Source of the DNA: Candidatus Kuenenia hertensis
GTDB lineage: Bacteria; Planctomycetota; Brocadiia; Brocadiales; Brocadiaceae
Assembly: GCA_021646465.1 (NCBI GenBank)
Contig: SOET01000036.1
Span: 1 to 44,190, forward strand
DNA: 44,190 nucleotides
Direction of reading: 5' to 3'
Within the stretch, counting starts at the first letter, position 1; each line of letters begins with the position of its first letter. Both the position numbers and the translations under genes were made by a program. Of the stretch, positions 13,069 through 18,031 are shown piece by piece. A model generated the notes under the pieces. The model made no database searches and was not told the origin of the DNA. It worked only from the letters and a program-made list of their open reading frames with translations.

Positions 13069-14433
13069 ATGGAACTAAAGTGGGTAAATATCATCCTTCC
13101 GGAAATTAAGGAACTTAGCAGAACAAAGAACTTCAAGCGACTGCGAGAGTTCCTTCGTGAACGTCATTCTGCTGACATTGTTGACTTGCTCTCCGGTCTC
13201 GAACCTACGGAGAAAGTGGTAAGTTTCAGATTGCTTGACAAGATCAAAAGTTCCGAGGTCTTTGCGCTCTTTGATTCTTCAGAACAAGAAGAACTCCTCA
13301 AGCAATTCACGGAACAACATGTAAGAACGCTTTTAATAGAAATGGAACCGGATGACAGAACCCAGTTATTTGATGAACTGCCGGCGGATGTTGTGGAGAA
13401 ACTCCTAAAATTACTCCCACCAGCGGAACGGAAAGAAGCAAATGAACTTCTAAATTATCCGCAAAATTCCGCCGGACGCATAATGACGCCGGAGTACGTA
13501 GCACTTAAAATGCATATGACCGTTGCGCAAGCACTTGAACATATACGAAAAACAGGATTAGACCGTGAAATCATTTACATATGCTACATCGTTGATGAAA
13601 CAAAAAAATTGCGGGGAGTCACTTCTCTTAAAAACATTATCCTTGCAAATCCTGACCAATTTATCAAAGAAATAATGAATGAAAATGTTGTATACGTTCA
13701 TACCACCGATGATCAGGAAGAAGCTGCAAAAGTAGTACAAAAGTACGATATTCTTGCCGTACCGGTTGTCGATAATGAAAACAGACTCGTTGGTATCGTT
13801 ACCGTTGATGATATTCTTGATATTCTTGAAGAAGAGGCCACCGAAGATTTTAAGAAAATGGCAGGCGTTCAAACTATTGAGGACGAGTACTTCCGCGTTG
13901 GAGTATCAAAACGCGTGATTAACCGGATAGTCTGGCTCGTTGTACTTGTTATTGCCGCAACAATTTCACAAACAATACTGAAAGGATATTCTGAAGTCTT
14001 AACTTCGATGATTGCAATTGCTTATTTTATTCCTATGTTGACAGGATCCGGAGGCAATACCGGATCGCAATCCTCTACCCTTGTGATCAGGGCACTGGCT
14101 ACCGGAGAAATAAAAACCAAAGAATGGTGGAAGATATTATTATGGGAATTGCGGGTAGGGGTTGTGCTTGGATTGATTCTGGGATTTATTGCTTTTTCCA
14201 TAGCAGCGCTATCTACAAAGCAAATCGCAATGGCAACAACTGTAGGAATTTCCCTCTTTTCCGTTGTAAGTGTTGGGAATATCGTGGGCGTTTCAATCCC
14301 CCTGTTTTTCCGGCTGATAAAGTTAGATCCTGCGTTTGTATCTGCACCATTAATTGCAACCTTACTGGATGCAACAGGCCTTATTATTTATTTTGAAATC
14401 GCAAGGAGGATACTGGTGACAACTACCAGTTAA
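13069..14433 (+). CDS. mgtE: Magnesium transporter MgtE
   Basis: This 454-aa protein has the full MgtE layout: an N-terminal superhelical domain (about 1-130, with LLIEMEPDDRTQLFDELPAD), a CBS pair (about 135-260, with ILAVPVVDNENRLVGIVTVD) that closes the pore when cytoplasmic Mg2+ is high, a plug helix, and five membrane helices from residue 285. The pore motif is PMLTGSGGNTGSQSSTLVIR, and the acidic site of the last helices is in LLDATGLIIYFEIAR. The length is normal. No Mg2+-sensing leader was recognised in the 136 nt upstream. Confidence 0.95.
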   Translation: MELKWVNIILPEIKELSRTKNFKRLREFLRERHSADIVDLLSGLEPTEKVVSFRLLDKIKSSEVFALFDSSEQEELLKQFTEQHVRTLLIEMEPDDRTQLFDELPADVVEKLLKLLPPAERKEANELLNYPQNSAGRIMTPEYVALKMHMTVAQALEHIRKTGLDREIIYICYIVDETKKLRGVTSLKNIILANPDQFIKEIMNENVVYVHTTDDQEEAAKVVQKYDILAVPVVDNENRLVGIVTVDDILDILEEEATEDFKKMAGVQTIEDEYFRVGVSKRVINRIVWLVVLVIAATISQTILKGYSEVLTSMIAIAYFIPMLTGSGGNTGSQSSTLVIRALATGEIKTKEWWKILLWELRVGVVLGLILGFIAFSIAALSTKQIAMATTVGISLFSVVSVGNIVGVSIPLFFRLIKLDPAFVSAPLIATLLDATGLIIYFEIARRILVTTTS

Positions 14434-14562: not shown

Positions 14563-14844
14563 TTGCAGGATGACCGCAAATCTTTAAACGAAAATATCGT
14601 TTTACTTGGCCTTGCATTTGATAATGAAGATAATCATAAAAGAATTACTACAGGAGAAAATTTTTATGTACTTGGCGGTTCTACCGAAACCCATGATAAC
14701 CTCGTTGAAAAGGTGATGGCTTTTCATGAAACCGTGAAAACATATGGTAAAAAATTAGAAGACCTTTCCAAAACGGAGTTTTACGAAATCGTCAAAAAAA
14801 TTGATCAGAAAAGTAAAAAAATGTTTTGGTTTTATCCTGAATAA
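14563..14844 (+). CDS. Hypothetical protein, TTG start
   Basis: This is a 93-aa soluble protein of unknown function. AAGGAG at 14551-14556 stands 6 nt before the TTG and supports that start; there is no ATG near it. It has no signal peptide or membrane helix. The sequence is charged and mostly helical (LVEKVMAFHETVKTYGKKLE, KTEFYEIVKKIDQKSKK). It is the first gene of a compact run of exported proteins (the TPR gene begins 10 nt after its stop) and follows a candidate promoter, so it may be a cytoplasmic partner of that set. No family was recognised. Confidence 0.7.
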   Translation: MQDDRKSLNENIVLLGLAFDNEDNHKRITTGENFYVLGGSTETHDNLVEKVMAFHETVKTYGKKLEDLSKTEFYEIVKKIDQKSKKMFWFYPE

Positions 14845-14854
14845 TAATAGACAA

Positions 14855-15655
14855 ATGATAAAAATTTTTTTTACCCTGCTACTTCTTAACTCGTTTTTTG
14901 CTTTTCAAAGTTTTGCGCAGGAATTCTTCGATGATTTTGAAATACATTACAGATTAGGAAATGAATATAATAACCGGGGAATGATTGATGAGGCTATCGC
15001 AGAATACAAAGAGGCAATAAATTTAAACTCAAGCCATCCAAATAGTTACAACAATTTAGGTGTTGCATATAGCAAAAAGCGAATGTTTGATGACGAAATC
15101 AGGTCATATAAAAAAGCAATCGACCTGGATGCCGCTTTTACGGAAGCATATTTTAACCTGGCAATCGCATATGGTTCAAAAGGAATGGTTGACGAAGAAA
15201 TCTCCACTTACCAAAAATTAATAAACATCGATCCGGAAAATTTGGAAGGTTTGTACAATCTGGGGCATGCTTATCGTGCGAAAGAAAAATATGATGAATC
15301 CATTGCCGCATACAAACGAGTAACGGAGTTGTATCCCGATTATCTCAATGCGTATTTCAATTTGGGTGTTGTTTATGGCCAAAAAGGATTGTTAAGCGAA
15401 GAAATTATTCAATACAAAAAAGCACTGGTATTAGATCCGAATAACGCAAAGATTCACTTCAATCTGGGCATTGCTTATGGCGAAATGAGAATGATTGAAG
15501 ATCAAATACGTGAATTTAAAGAGGCTATCAGCATAGATCCTTATTATATCAAGGCTTATAAAAACCTTGAATCGGTCTATCGGCAAAAAGGATTGATTGA
15601 AGAAGCAGATAAAGAACTATCTAAGCACAACGACTTAGCAAAGGAGAAAAGGTAA
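14855..15655 (+). CDS. Exported TPR protein
   Basis: This 266-aa protein starts at the ATG at 14855, where a clear signal peptide begins (MIKIFFTLLLLNSFFAFQSF, cleavage after AQ). The remainder is seven tandem 34-residue tetratricopeptide repeats, from FEIHYRLGNEYNNRGMIDEA to KAYKNLESVYRQKGLIEEAD, with the canonical pattern of small residues and a Pro near each end. It should be a periplasmic or paryphoplasmic protein-protein interaction scaffold. A longer frame from 14801 overlaps the previous gene and would mask the signal peptide. Other exported or membrane proteins follow directly. Confidence 0.85.
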   Translation: MIKIFFTLLLLNSFFAFQSFAQEFFDDFEIHYRLGNEYNNRGMIDEAIAEYKEAINLNSSHPNSYNNLGVAYSKKRMFDDEIRSYKKAIDLDAAFTEAYFNLAIAYGSKGMVDEEISTYQKLINIDPENLEGLYNLGHAYRAKEKYDESIAAYKRVTELYPDYLNAYFNLGVVYGQKGLLSEEIIQYKKALVLDPNNAKIHFNLGIAYGEMRMIEDQIREFKEAISIDPYYIKAYKNLESVYRQKGLIEEADKELSKHNDLAKEKR

Positions 15656-15728
15656 AAAATAATCTTACATTATATTTTTGTTGTTTCGGCAATAACGTAA
15701 ATACTGTAAAAATCAAAGGAGAAAATAA

Positions 15729-16034
15729 ATGATCGACAAAATCAACTCAATAATAGACAAGCTCAATGGAATAATTTCTGAGAAATCGGACAAGGTTATG
15801 ACAAACAAAAAAGTAGAGGGTCTGGTAAACAATCTTGGCGGAATGGCCGCTTTTCTCGGTGCAATCGCTTTTGGCGTTGTTTTTATTATGTGCACCACAA
15901 GTTTAATGAAAACCGGCAAGAACTATGTAGTAGGACCAGCTTCTGAAACAGCCATAGAAGAAGAAGCGACTTCCGCAGATGCGGAAGAAACCGAAGAGGA
16001 ATCAGGTGAAGATGAAGAAGAGGACGAGGAATAA
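15729..16034 (+). CDS. Small membrane protein with acidic tail
   Basis: This is a 101-aa protein with a good ribosome binding site (AAAGGAGAAAATAA before the ATG). It has an amphipathic N-terminal region (IDKINSIIDKLNGIISEKSD), one hydrophobic segment at about residues 39-57 (AAFLGAIAFGVVFIMCTTSL), and a last third made almost only of Glu and Asp with a few Ser and Ala. No family was recognised. The acidic tail could bind cations or basic partner proteins. It lies between the TPR protein and another exported protein in the same direction. Confidence 0.75.
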   Translation: MIDKINSIIDKLNGIISEKSDKVMTNKKVEGLVNNLGGMAAFLGAIAFGVVFIMCTTSLMKTGKNYVVGPASETAIEEEATSADAEETEEESGEDEEEDEE

Positions 16035-16097
16035 ATAACGTCAAAAACCCTGTCATTTTTGTTTTATCCGATTTACAATACTGTGAAAGTTAGGGAT

Positions 16098-16700
16098 ATG
16101 GGAAAAAAAATCTTTCTGCTAACAAATAGTTTCTTATTTGTTTTTGCCCTATTTTATTTAAAACAAACAAAAGCAATCACCTTAAACCTGTCACCCGATC
16201 AGATAAAGGAAGCAATTCAATACGGAAAGCAAAACAAAAGTGTTGATTTTGTTACATTTTCCGGTAGTTGGACGGTAGCCCTTGGAAAGGGAAAAGGATT
16301 TGCAACCTTATTCACCCCTTATCACAACATTGCTTATAAAGCAAAAAAATTTGAAATAGAACACAGAGAACTTTCAAACCGGGACATACTGAATGCGTTA
16401 GAAATAGGAAACTCGCTTGTGTTTACTGTGACTGTTTACGGAGATGTATTCAATTTCGCAGTATTTCAAACCGCAAAACTTTGCCAAAAAGATTTGGAAA
16501 TAAAACCTATATATGAGTTTAAACCTGATATAGCAGATGCCAGTGAATTTTGGCCAAACCCACCAAGTCAAATGGCTCGAATGGTTTTTAGATTTCCTGT
16601 TTACGATATTGATTTAAATGCACCGGCAACATTAGTTGTTTTTGATCCGGAAGGAGATGAAGGGGTATCGTTTCCTTTCGATTTAACAAAAATGAAATGA
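16098..16700 (+). CDS. Secreted protein of unknown function
   Basis: This protein has 200 aa from the ATG at 16098, where a signal peptide starts (MGKKIFLLTNSFLFVFALFY, probable cleavage after TKA). A TTG at 16059 in frame would add 13 residues and is less likely. The mature part begins ITLNLSPDQIKEAIQYGKQN, followed by a mostly beta domain with VDFVTFSGSWTVALGKGKGF and a C-terminal PATLVVFDPEGDEGVSFPFD. It contains one cysteine. I do not recognise the family. It belongs to the run of envelope proteins at 14.5-17.6 kb. Confidence 0.72.
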   Translation: MGKKIFLLTNSFLFVFALFYLKQTKAITLNLSPDQIKEAIQYGKQNKSVDFVTFSGSWTVALGKGKGFATLFTPYHNIAYKAKKFEIEHRELSNRDILNALEIGNSLVFTVTVYGDVFNFAVFQTAKLCQKDLEIKPIYEFKPDIADASEFWPNPPSQMARMVFRFPVYDIDLNAPATLVVFDPEGDEGVSFPFDLTKMK

Positions 16701-16798
16701 ATATTTCGTTCCTGCCCATAATATTCTATAAATATTGTGATACTCAAAATAAAGATTAGCACGTTACCTCCCAAACTTAACCCAAAAAGAGGTCTATT

Positions 16799-17626
16799 AT
16801 GTCGAAATTTGTCACACTCGTTATGACTGTATTAGTATTGCCTTTAACATTAATAGGATGTATTACTGTTGAGACAAAAACTTGTAAGGATAATGAGGAA
16901 CATTTGGCATTAATTGATCAAAAGGTGAGTGAATTCGAAAAACAAATTAAAGATTTAGATTATAATACGAAAAATTTAACTACGCGCATTGAAATGCTCA
17001 CACAAAAGAATATGAGCATGGATACAAAATATTCTAACCTCTGTGAAACGCTAAACACTCTTAGTACTAATATTGAAGCAAAAAACAGTTCCCTGGAAAC
17101 CTCCCTTTCTTACCTCACAAACGATATAGAGAATATCGAAAAACATTTGGATGAACTTGAAACAACTAACTCTGATTTACAAAATCAAATTGTCGTCTTA
17201 CAAAATCAAAGGTCCCGCATAATCAGTTCAAAAATAGTGCCGGAAGAAACAGTAATAAATAAAGAAGCGAAAGAAATACTGAGTACAAATATTGAAATAA
17301 TTAAAGGTACGAAAGATGAGGTAGAGTTCGCAGAACAAGAGGACGACAGTGAAGATCAGGAAATTGAAGAAACAACAGAAGGCGAAGAAGTTGAAGCGAT
17401 AGAAAAAGTGTTTGTAAAAGAAGAAACAAAGGAATTATCAGATGTGCAAAAAAAAGAATTACTGCAAAAGTTATTAGACGAAGCGTTAGAGCGTTACCGG
17501 GAAGGGAACTACCGGGAAGCCCTTGCAAAATGGGAAGAGGTACTCGAAATAGAACCGGATAATCTGGAATCAAAATTCAATATTGAAATCACCAAAGAAA
17601 AAATAAAATCATTATCGAAAAACTGA
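16799..17626 (+). CDS. Coiled-coil/TPR lipoprotein
   Basis: This 275-aa lipoprotein has a type II signal (LTLIGC, lipidated Cys21). Residues about 30-145 form a long coiled coil with Leu, Ile and Asn at heptad positions (LDYNTKNLTTRIEMLTQKNM and similar). An acidic linker (about 175-205, EEDDSEDQEIEETTEGEEVE) follows. The C-terminus is one TPR-like hairpin (ALERYREGNYREALAKWEEV). The layout, a lipid anchor plus coiled coil plus TPR, recalls the YbgF/CpoB partner of the Tol-Pal system, but no tol genes are near. AAGAGG upstream supports the start. It is the last gene before the hairpin cluster. Confidence 0.8.
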   Translation: MSKFVTLVMTVLVLPLTLIGCITVETKTCKDNEEHLALIDQKVSEFEKQIKDLDYNTKNLTTRIEMLTQKNMSMDTKYSNLCETLNTLSTNIEAKNSSLETSLSYLTNDIENIEKHLDELETTNSDLQNQIVVLQNQRSRIISSKIVPEETVINKEAKEILSTNIEIIKGTKDEVEFAEQEDDSEDQEIEETTEGEEVEAIEKVFVKEETKELSDVQKKELLQKLLDEALERYREGNYREALAKWEEVLEIEPDNLESKFNIEITKEKIKSLSKN

Positions 17627-17698
17627 TATCCTATAATTTCAGCAGCATCCATTAATTCCTATTATTCAGCGTAATTTATTAAACTACCGGAGCGCAGT

Positions 17699-17763
17699 AG
17701 TGCAGTTGCATTCCCAAACTCCAGTTTGAGAATGCAACTGCACTGGAAACTTTGTTTCCAGTG
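17699..17763. repeat. Two overlapping perfect hairpins
   Basis: Arms 17699-17713 and 17730-17744 are a perfect 15-bp inverted repeat (AGTGCAGTTGCATTC) with an inner AAACT/AGTTT pair in the loop. A second perfect 10-bp stem (CACTGGAAAC, 17741-17750 with 17754-17763) shares CACT with the first, so both cannot form in full together. There is no U-tract right after, so this is not a standard intrinsic terminator. Confidence 0.7.
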
Positions 17764-17827
17764 AGGGTTTGATCTAACACGTTATTAAAATTACAAAATG
17801 TCTGAATACGGTGATTTTATTCACTAT

Positions 17828-17898
17828 CTGTCTACAGACAGGCGAGAAACCGGAGTTTCTTGAACAAGTACATTCCCAAACTGGAGTTTGGGAACGAG
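17828..17898. repeat. Three short palindromes of dispersed families
   Basis: CTGTCTACAGACAG (17828-17841), AGAAAC/GTTTCT (17845-17860) and TCCCAAACT/AGTTTGGGA (17873-17892) follow each other. The first has a relative at 28200-28215 and the second at 44150-44175. The last, with its GGAGTTTGGGAACGAG tail, has a relative at 26843-26858. Confidence 0.65.
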
Positions 17899-18031
17899 CC
17901 GTGTAATATTTACGCTGAATAGATAATTTGTACAGTAAAGAAAATCTGCTGAATACCATGTGCAGTGATTTTGCATGCACGGTTTTGGAGAGAGGTGGCT
18001 CTTTTTGGATTAACCCTGCCTCTACTCATCC

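Follow-up and report, generated by a model that had tools for sequence, protein, structure and literature searches.

Two bacterial systems built around tetratricopeptide repeats (TPR) offer the closest described parallels to the gene set presented here. MamA is a cytosolic TPR scaffold of a bacterial organelle, the magnetosome, while CpoB, whose gene sits in the tol-pal operon, consists of a coiled coil followed by TPR units. Anammox bacteria harbor an energy-producing organelle, the anammoxosome, and the choice of exported proteins between this organelle and the envelope is open according to two studies (PMC2881027; PMC12758564). Signal peptides of anammoxosome and envelope proteins look alike (PMC2881027), and systems targeting proteins to the anammoxosome must have evolved, as the second study, from 2025, puts it (PMC12758564). 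No description of the five genes p1–p5 reported here, nor of a targeting system built from them, was found in the anammox literature searched, supplementary tables being outside its scope. These genes form a real, conserved, and largely undescribed set, which is more than chance and belongs to none of the families tested.

The five-gene set and its surroundings

The window, that is, the whole 44,190-nucleotide stretch of DNA analyzed, corresponds to contig C27 in a draft genome of 4.17 Mb. Since this genome contains an 809-aa hydrazine synthase alpha gene and 13 matches to PF13447 (HAO-like), it is that of an anammox-type planctomycete, presumably of the genus Kuenenia. Its closest named record, as retrieved by a scan of genome contigs, is VGXV01000036.1, a Planctomycetota MAG contig with 81% identity in p4 (one locus, L032).

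Five ORFs, all co-directional, occupy positions 14563–17626 of the forward strand, precisely where the original prediction had placed five compact genes (Table 1). All of them are real genes, as judged from dN/dS values of 0.07–0.29 relative to two genomes of the same genus, which reflect purifying selection on each one. Membrane or export features appear in four of the five products (p2–p5), with the signal peptides and lipid anchor of p2, p4, and p5 being assessed by eye and with a hydropathy window; the proposal that these are mostly envelope proteins is borne out to that extent, the membrane of destination being a separate question.

Table 1. Positions in the window of the five genes and of the features flanking them.
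Feature	Position	Strand	Description
p1	14563..14844	+	93 aa, soluble, TTG start; old Planctomycetota family
p2	14855..15655	+	exported, seven TPR units; longest ORF from TTG 14801
p3	15729..16034	+	membrane protein, one helix, acidic C-terminal tail
p4	16098..16700	+	exported, helices and beta sandwich, order-restricted family; longest ORF from TTG 16059
p5	16799..17626	+	predicted lipoprotein with coiled coil, acidic linker, and a TPR-like motif at the C-terminus
mgtE-type transporter gene	13069..14433	+	Pfam MgtE; frequent upstream neighbor, outside the unit
Dispersed palindromic element	17663..17921	none	12-bp terminal inverted repeats; outside the unit

When the neighbors of the set were scanned with Pfam, they comprised MgtE, one unmatched ORF, and a radical SAM gene. 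We infer co-transcription of p1–p5, and the signals previously suggested to delimit their transcript did not hold up. Promoter-like sites amount to 14, versus 12.4 ± 3.8 in shuffled sequences, so the single promoter candidate is at chance level. Regarding the hairpin cluster taken as an end signal downstream of p5, no terminator was found on the forward strand, and the hairpins are part of a dispersed repeat of ~259 bp, bounded by 12-bp terminal inverted repeats (TATTCAGCGTAA) and with two palindromes inside. The core palindrome of this element was located at 30 genomic places, versus none for the reversed control, with copies often paired about 160–180 bp apart. The eight paired sites fetched all align to the element with 79–87% identity (seven over most of its length and one, L088, over 215 bases), two single palindrome sites align partially, and the element was not found in the two loci of the same genus. 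Considering its terminal inverted repeats, the 30 palindrome places, and the frequent pairs, it resembles a small non-autonomous mobile element.

Conservation within and outside the family

Relatives were sorted into families under the working labels f1 to f9, f1 being that of the window, with 33 genomes, 29 of them showing a locus with the cluster p4. The order p2-p3-p4-p5 and its strand are constant in all 29 loci, the window's own genome included, and p1 directly precedes p2 in 28 of them (25 read at the locus; G012, G013, and G019 by coordinates). The exception is G026, where p1 is absent although the contig extends 2.5 kb further. Thus, inside f1 the genes are neither scattered nor reduced to one or two, and their reading as a single machine is plausible there at the sequence level. 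Three of the other four f1 genomes are broken by contig ends (G034 and G038 with the edge in or beside p5, G042 split between contigs), while the fourth, G025, genuinely lacks the set: the gene after its intact mgtE (77% identical), on that very contig, is by its sequence an Era-like GTPase gene. None of p1–p5 lies beside that mgtE, and genome-wide p1, p3, p4, and p5 were not found either, absence in draft genomes being weak evidence.

The flanks of 14 relatives were compared. mgtE is adjacent to the set in 10 of them, shifted about 7.6 kb away in another, and could not be seen in the remaining three, and no recurrence was detected in these flanks for the three downstream window genes tested. 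The set itself is whole in all 14, apart from p1 in G026. As flanking genes vary while the set persists, the unit ends at p5 and is independent of mgtE.

Outside f1, the set breaks up. Searches across the class (75 genomes) matched p4 in 60 genomes, p1 in 43, p3 in 44, and p5 in 48. Of the 17 f4 genomes, 16 have p4 and p5 separated by about 0.5–0.9 kb, and G050 lacks both. A like protein is encoded between them in the three f4 loci opened, with Pfam TerB and DnaJ domains in the one locus tested; DjlA-like by layout, this TerB and J-domain neighbor is no homologue of p1–p5, and its gene is missing from the f1 cluster. The f4 p3 is found apart from p4 and p5, where a PilZ-like gene and the gene of an exported zinc-ribbon/TPR/FGE-sulfatase protein precede it (three loci opened, Pfam in one), and two small cytochrome c'-like genes are seen at this locus on the opposite strand (L068:4609-7023, also L069 and L070). 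In f3, p1 is located beside an exported protein without Pfam match in the three loci opened, two of which also show an ABC exporter. With its profile matching in 99 of 392 phylum genomes, p1 is an old, phylum-wide gene.

Features of the individual proteins

Sequence families were inspected for the proteins of the set, and for p1, p3, and p4 of the window neither Pfam nor NCBIfam gave a match above cut-off. Extending the Pfam-A search to 41 p4 and 24 p1 homologues (p3 being represented by the window protein only) produced nothing better than E 0.01, and profiles of p4 and p1 retrieved no match among PDB sequences.

The TTG start proposed for p1 is corroborated by an AGGAG just 5' of it and by most relatives beginning at the same alignment column. 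Its homologues display conserved D, H, and R residues, and an enzymatic role may be envisaged for it. The AlphaFold2 model (pLDDT 82.0, the five models spanning 61 to 82) presents a small beta part, then two helices, and found no counterpart among solved structures, either at E ≤ 0.001 with Foldseek or with the structural aligner (best Z 3.7). For p2, the description as an exported protein of seven TPRs agrees with seven 34-residue units recognized by eye and with Pfam TPR_11 (4.2e-46, in six stretches). Read from ATG 14855, its residues 1–20 form a hydrophobic stretch, signal-peptide-like by eye; this ATG, rather than TTG 14801, is probably the start, since in several relatives p2 begins just past the p1 stop.

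Hydropathy shows a single transmembrane stretch in p3, at about residues 32–63, in agreement with the one helix expected. Its C-terminal tail contains 18 D/E among 33 residues and no K/R, so the nearly pure acidic tail also announced is confirmed for the window, but not as a constant feature: such tails are found in the three genomes of the window's genus, two further f1 genomes, and f4, whereas those of most other f1 genera are mildly acidic and A/P/T-rich. A similar partial agreement was obtained for p5, described beforehand as a coiled-coil/TPR lipoprotein. The lipoprotein signal (LIGC) and the coiled coil are present, followed by an acidic linker, while the TPR portion is limited to one TPR-like motif with a TPR_2 score of 20.9 versus the Pfam cut-off of 27. 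Among the p5 ORFs listed, the signal ends in a GC pair in 35 of 36, the remaining ORF being incomplete, and the strict lipobox pattern is observed in 18 of 36. Tandem duplications of p5 occur in L037, L038, and L045 (genera g6 and g7). In G014 (L039/L013), p2 and p5 each appear as two ORFs and the p3 tail is in another frame, reflecting either sequencing errors or decay.

The expectation of a secreted, beta-rich p4 is met by a signal peptide from ATG 16098 and by a model with a beta sandwich. This ATG is probably the start, rather than TTG 16059, since the signal peptide follows it directly and the starts of relatives agree. In the AlphaFold2 model (pLDDT 87.5), N-terminal helices precede the sandwich. 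Its best solved structure is 3fjv, a Burkholderia protein of unknown function without sequence match to p4 (Z 7.2, in the range of unmatched models; rmsd 4.8, 150 aligned residues, 11% identity), with the alignment covering residues 43–212 of the model. Subsequent matches are mostly immunoglobulin-type sandwiches, with Z not exceeding 6.0 and about 99 residues aligned, and the structural aligner rows give good coverage of model residues 77–213 only. Antibody domains are also on top in Foldseek, with TM about 0.3 and none at E ≤ 0.001; we read the model as a generic beta sandwich rather than as a probable immunoglobulin relative. Only A, Y, F, W, and L residues are invariant in p4, and no candidate catalytic set is seen among them.

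In the phylum-wide search, the p4 profile matched 35 of the 392 genomes, all from the same order (35 of its 36 members, versus none of the 356 other Planctomycetota), so that the family is order-restricted among the genomes sampled. In a tree of 41 proteins of this family, the p4 of the gene cluster and its f2, f3, and f4 relatives are set apart from a paralogue clade with 100/98 support. This agrees with vertical inheritance following an early duplication, deep placements being uncertain owing to some long branches. In two f1 genomes, a p4 paralogue directly adjoins a gene that by eye is nitrilase-type amidohydrolase-like (L071:6720-7325 and L077:5465-6073).

Co-distribution with hydrazine synthase

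Hydrazine synthase alpha (HzsA) was matched at E ≤ 1e-20 in 43 genomes of the order and in a 44th, G064, outside it. A p4-family match accompanies it in 42 of the 43, the exception being G050 (77% complete); in G038 this match is the paralogue, and G061 (f5) shows a p4 paralogue but no match to HzsA. In G012, G024, and G055, only a fragment of HzsA is matched, and the co-occurrence represents a lower bound, because HzsA was not detected in several f1 genomes whose rated completeness exceeds 90%. Being confined to one clade, this co-distribution cannot separate an anammox trait from other traits of the clade. G025, devoid of the cluster, nonetheless has nine HAO-like matches. Matches to PF18582, the hydrazine synthase alpha middle domain, number 11 in G064 (f7) and 16 in G065 (f8), class members outside the anammox order.

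Regarding physical proximity, one hzsA copy of G031 begins about 19 kb from p1 (22 kb if measured between p4 and the PF18582 domain), while both copies of G029 are more than 600 kb from the cluster; a general linkage of p1–p5 with the hydrazine synthase operon was thus rejected. Between the upstream genes of the G031 cluster and this hzsA copy there is a tandemly repeated block (L073-L074), comprising a cobalt/nickel transport protein-like gene and two genes upstream of hzsA. A position of the cluster near kuste282 to kuste285 had also been guessed from the numbering of the hydrazine synthase genes; among these locus tags, the literature yielded the 285 series only, which did not confirm the guess.

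Proposed role and alternatives

The kinds of proteins encoded, namely a membrane anchor, a lipid-anchored coiled coil, a TPR adaptor, and a beta-sandwich binder, suggest binding or holding rather than catalysis. Our tentative preference, held at somewhat less than even confidence, is that p1–p5 constitute an operon passed on vertically in one anammox family, and that their products most likely build an exported complex that is non-enzymatic and serves as a scaffold or in assembly. We infer such a physical complex, its scaffold role, its topology, and its compartment. p3 would be its membrane anchor and p5 would extend from its lipid anchor through the coiled coil, whereas p2, by its TPRs, and p4, by its beta sandwich, might act as soluble exported adaptors holding partner proteins; p1, from an older family, would be a cytosolic accessory. 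Since p4 and p5 are neighbors in two families, they could form the core. In favor of the scaffold complex are (i) the constant order in 29 of 29 f1 loci, (ii) the p4-p5 linkage in f4, (iii) purifying selection, (iv) the TPR, coiled coil, lipid anchor, and membrane helix, and (v) the lack of a catalytic set in p4, modeled as a beta sandwich. Against it stand the absence of all five genes from G025 and of p1 from G026, the presence of p1 and p3 elsewhere outside f1, the inconstant acidic tail, and the conceivable enzymatic role of p1.

The five genes might instead share a transcript without a common task, as a stable neighborhood devoid of a joint complex. The phylum-wide p1, found elsewhere without the other four, and the f4 p3 beside PilZ-like and FGE-sulfatase/TPR genes point that way, but p2–p5 persist while flanking genes vary, p4 and p5 stay linked in f4, and G025 lacks all five together; we consider this reading unlikely. 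A comparably low probability is given to an accessory of outer-membrane or lipoprotein assembly, by analogy with CpoB- or BAM-associated TPR and coiled-coil proteins. The make-up of p5, a lipoprotein with coiled coil and TPR-like end, would suit it, as would the exported neighbor of p1 in f3 and the gene separating p5 from p4 in f4, whose J domain might provide a chaperone link. On the contrary, neither p2 nor p5 qualifies for the CpoB family (see below), and no Tol-Pal or BAM gene was identified among the immediate neighbors of the cluster.

Slightly less probable still is that p4 and p5, joined by p1–p3 in one family, are parts of an anammox-only machine for the organelle, either sorting exported proteins into the anammoxosome or tethering the organelle to the cell membrane. 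The p4 family is nearly universal in the order, absent from the other Planctomycetota sampled, and matched in all but one of its HzsA-positive genomes, and anammoxosome targeting is an open problem in the literature (PMC2881027; PMC12758564). Nonetheless, co-distribution in a single clade cannot isolate the organelle from other clade traits, G061 has the paralogue without HzsA, and G025 has HAO-like proteins without the cluster. For the favored scaffold complex as well, "envelope" could equally denote the membrane of the anammox organelle, because no signal is known to tell the two destinations apart (PMC2881027). Kept together in almost the whole family and including a protein family seen only in anammox-type bacteria, the set is a good candidate for part of the compartmented anammox cell; a conserved operon of exported proteins that includes a family confined to this order among the 392 phylum genomes sampled supplies concrete targets for localization and pull-down, which could tell whether it encodes a scaffold of the envelope or a component of the organelle.

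Comparison with known systems

CpoB/YbgF (TIGR02795) was rejected as an identity for either protein, p2 scoring 29.4 bits versus a cut-off of 90.1 and p5 being unlisted at E ≤ 1. p5 shares with CpoB the layout of a coiled coil leading to a TPR-like region, and differs from it in being predicted to be lipidated and in ending in a single weak TPR-like motif. MamA (NF040959) is the best NCBIfam match of p2 (2.5e-36), but its 125.1 bits are below the NCBIfam cut-off of 200, so p2 was not accepted as a MamA homologue; any regular array of TPRs would match in this way. Unlike the cytosolic MamA, p2 carries a signal-peptide-like N-terminus.
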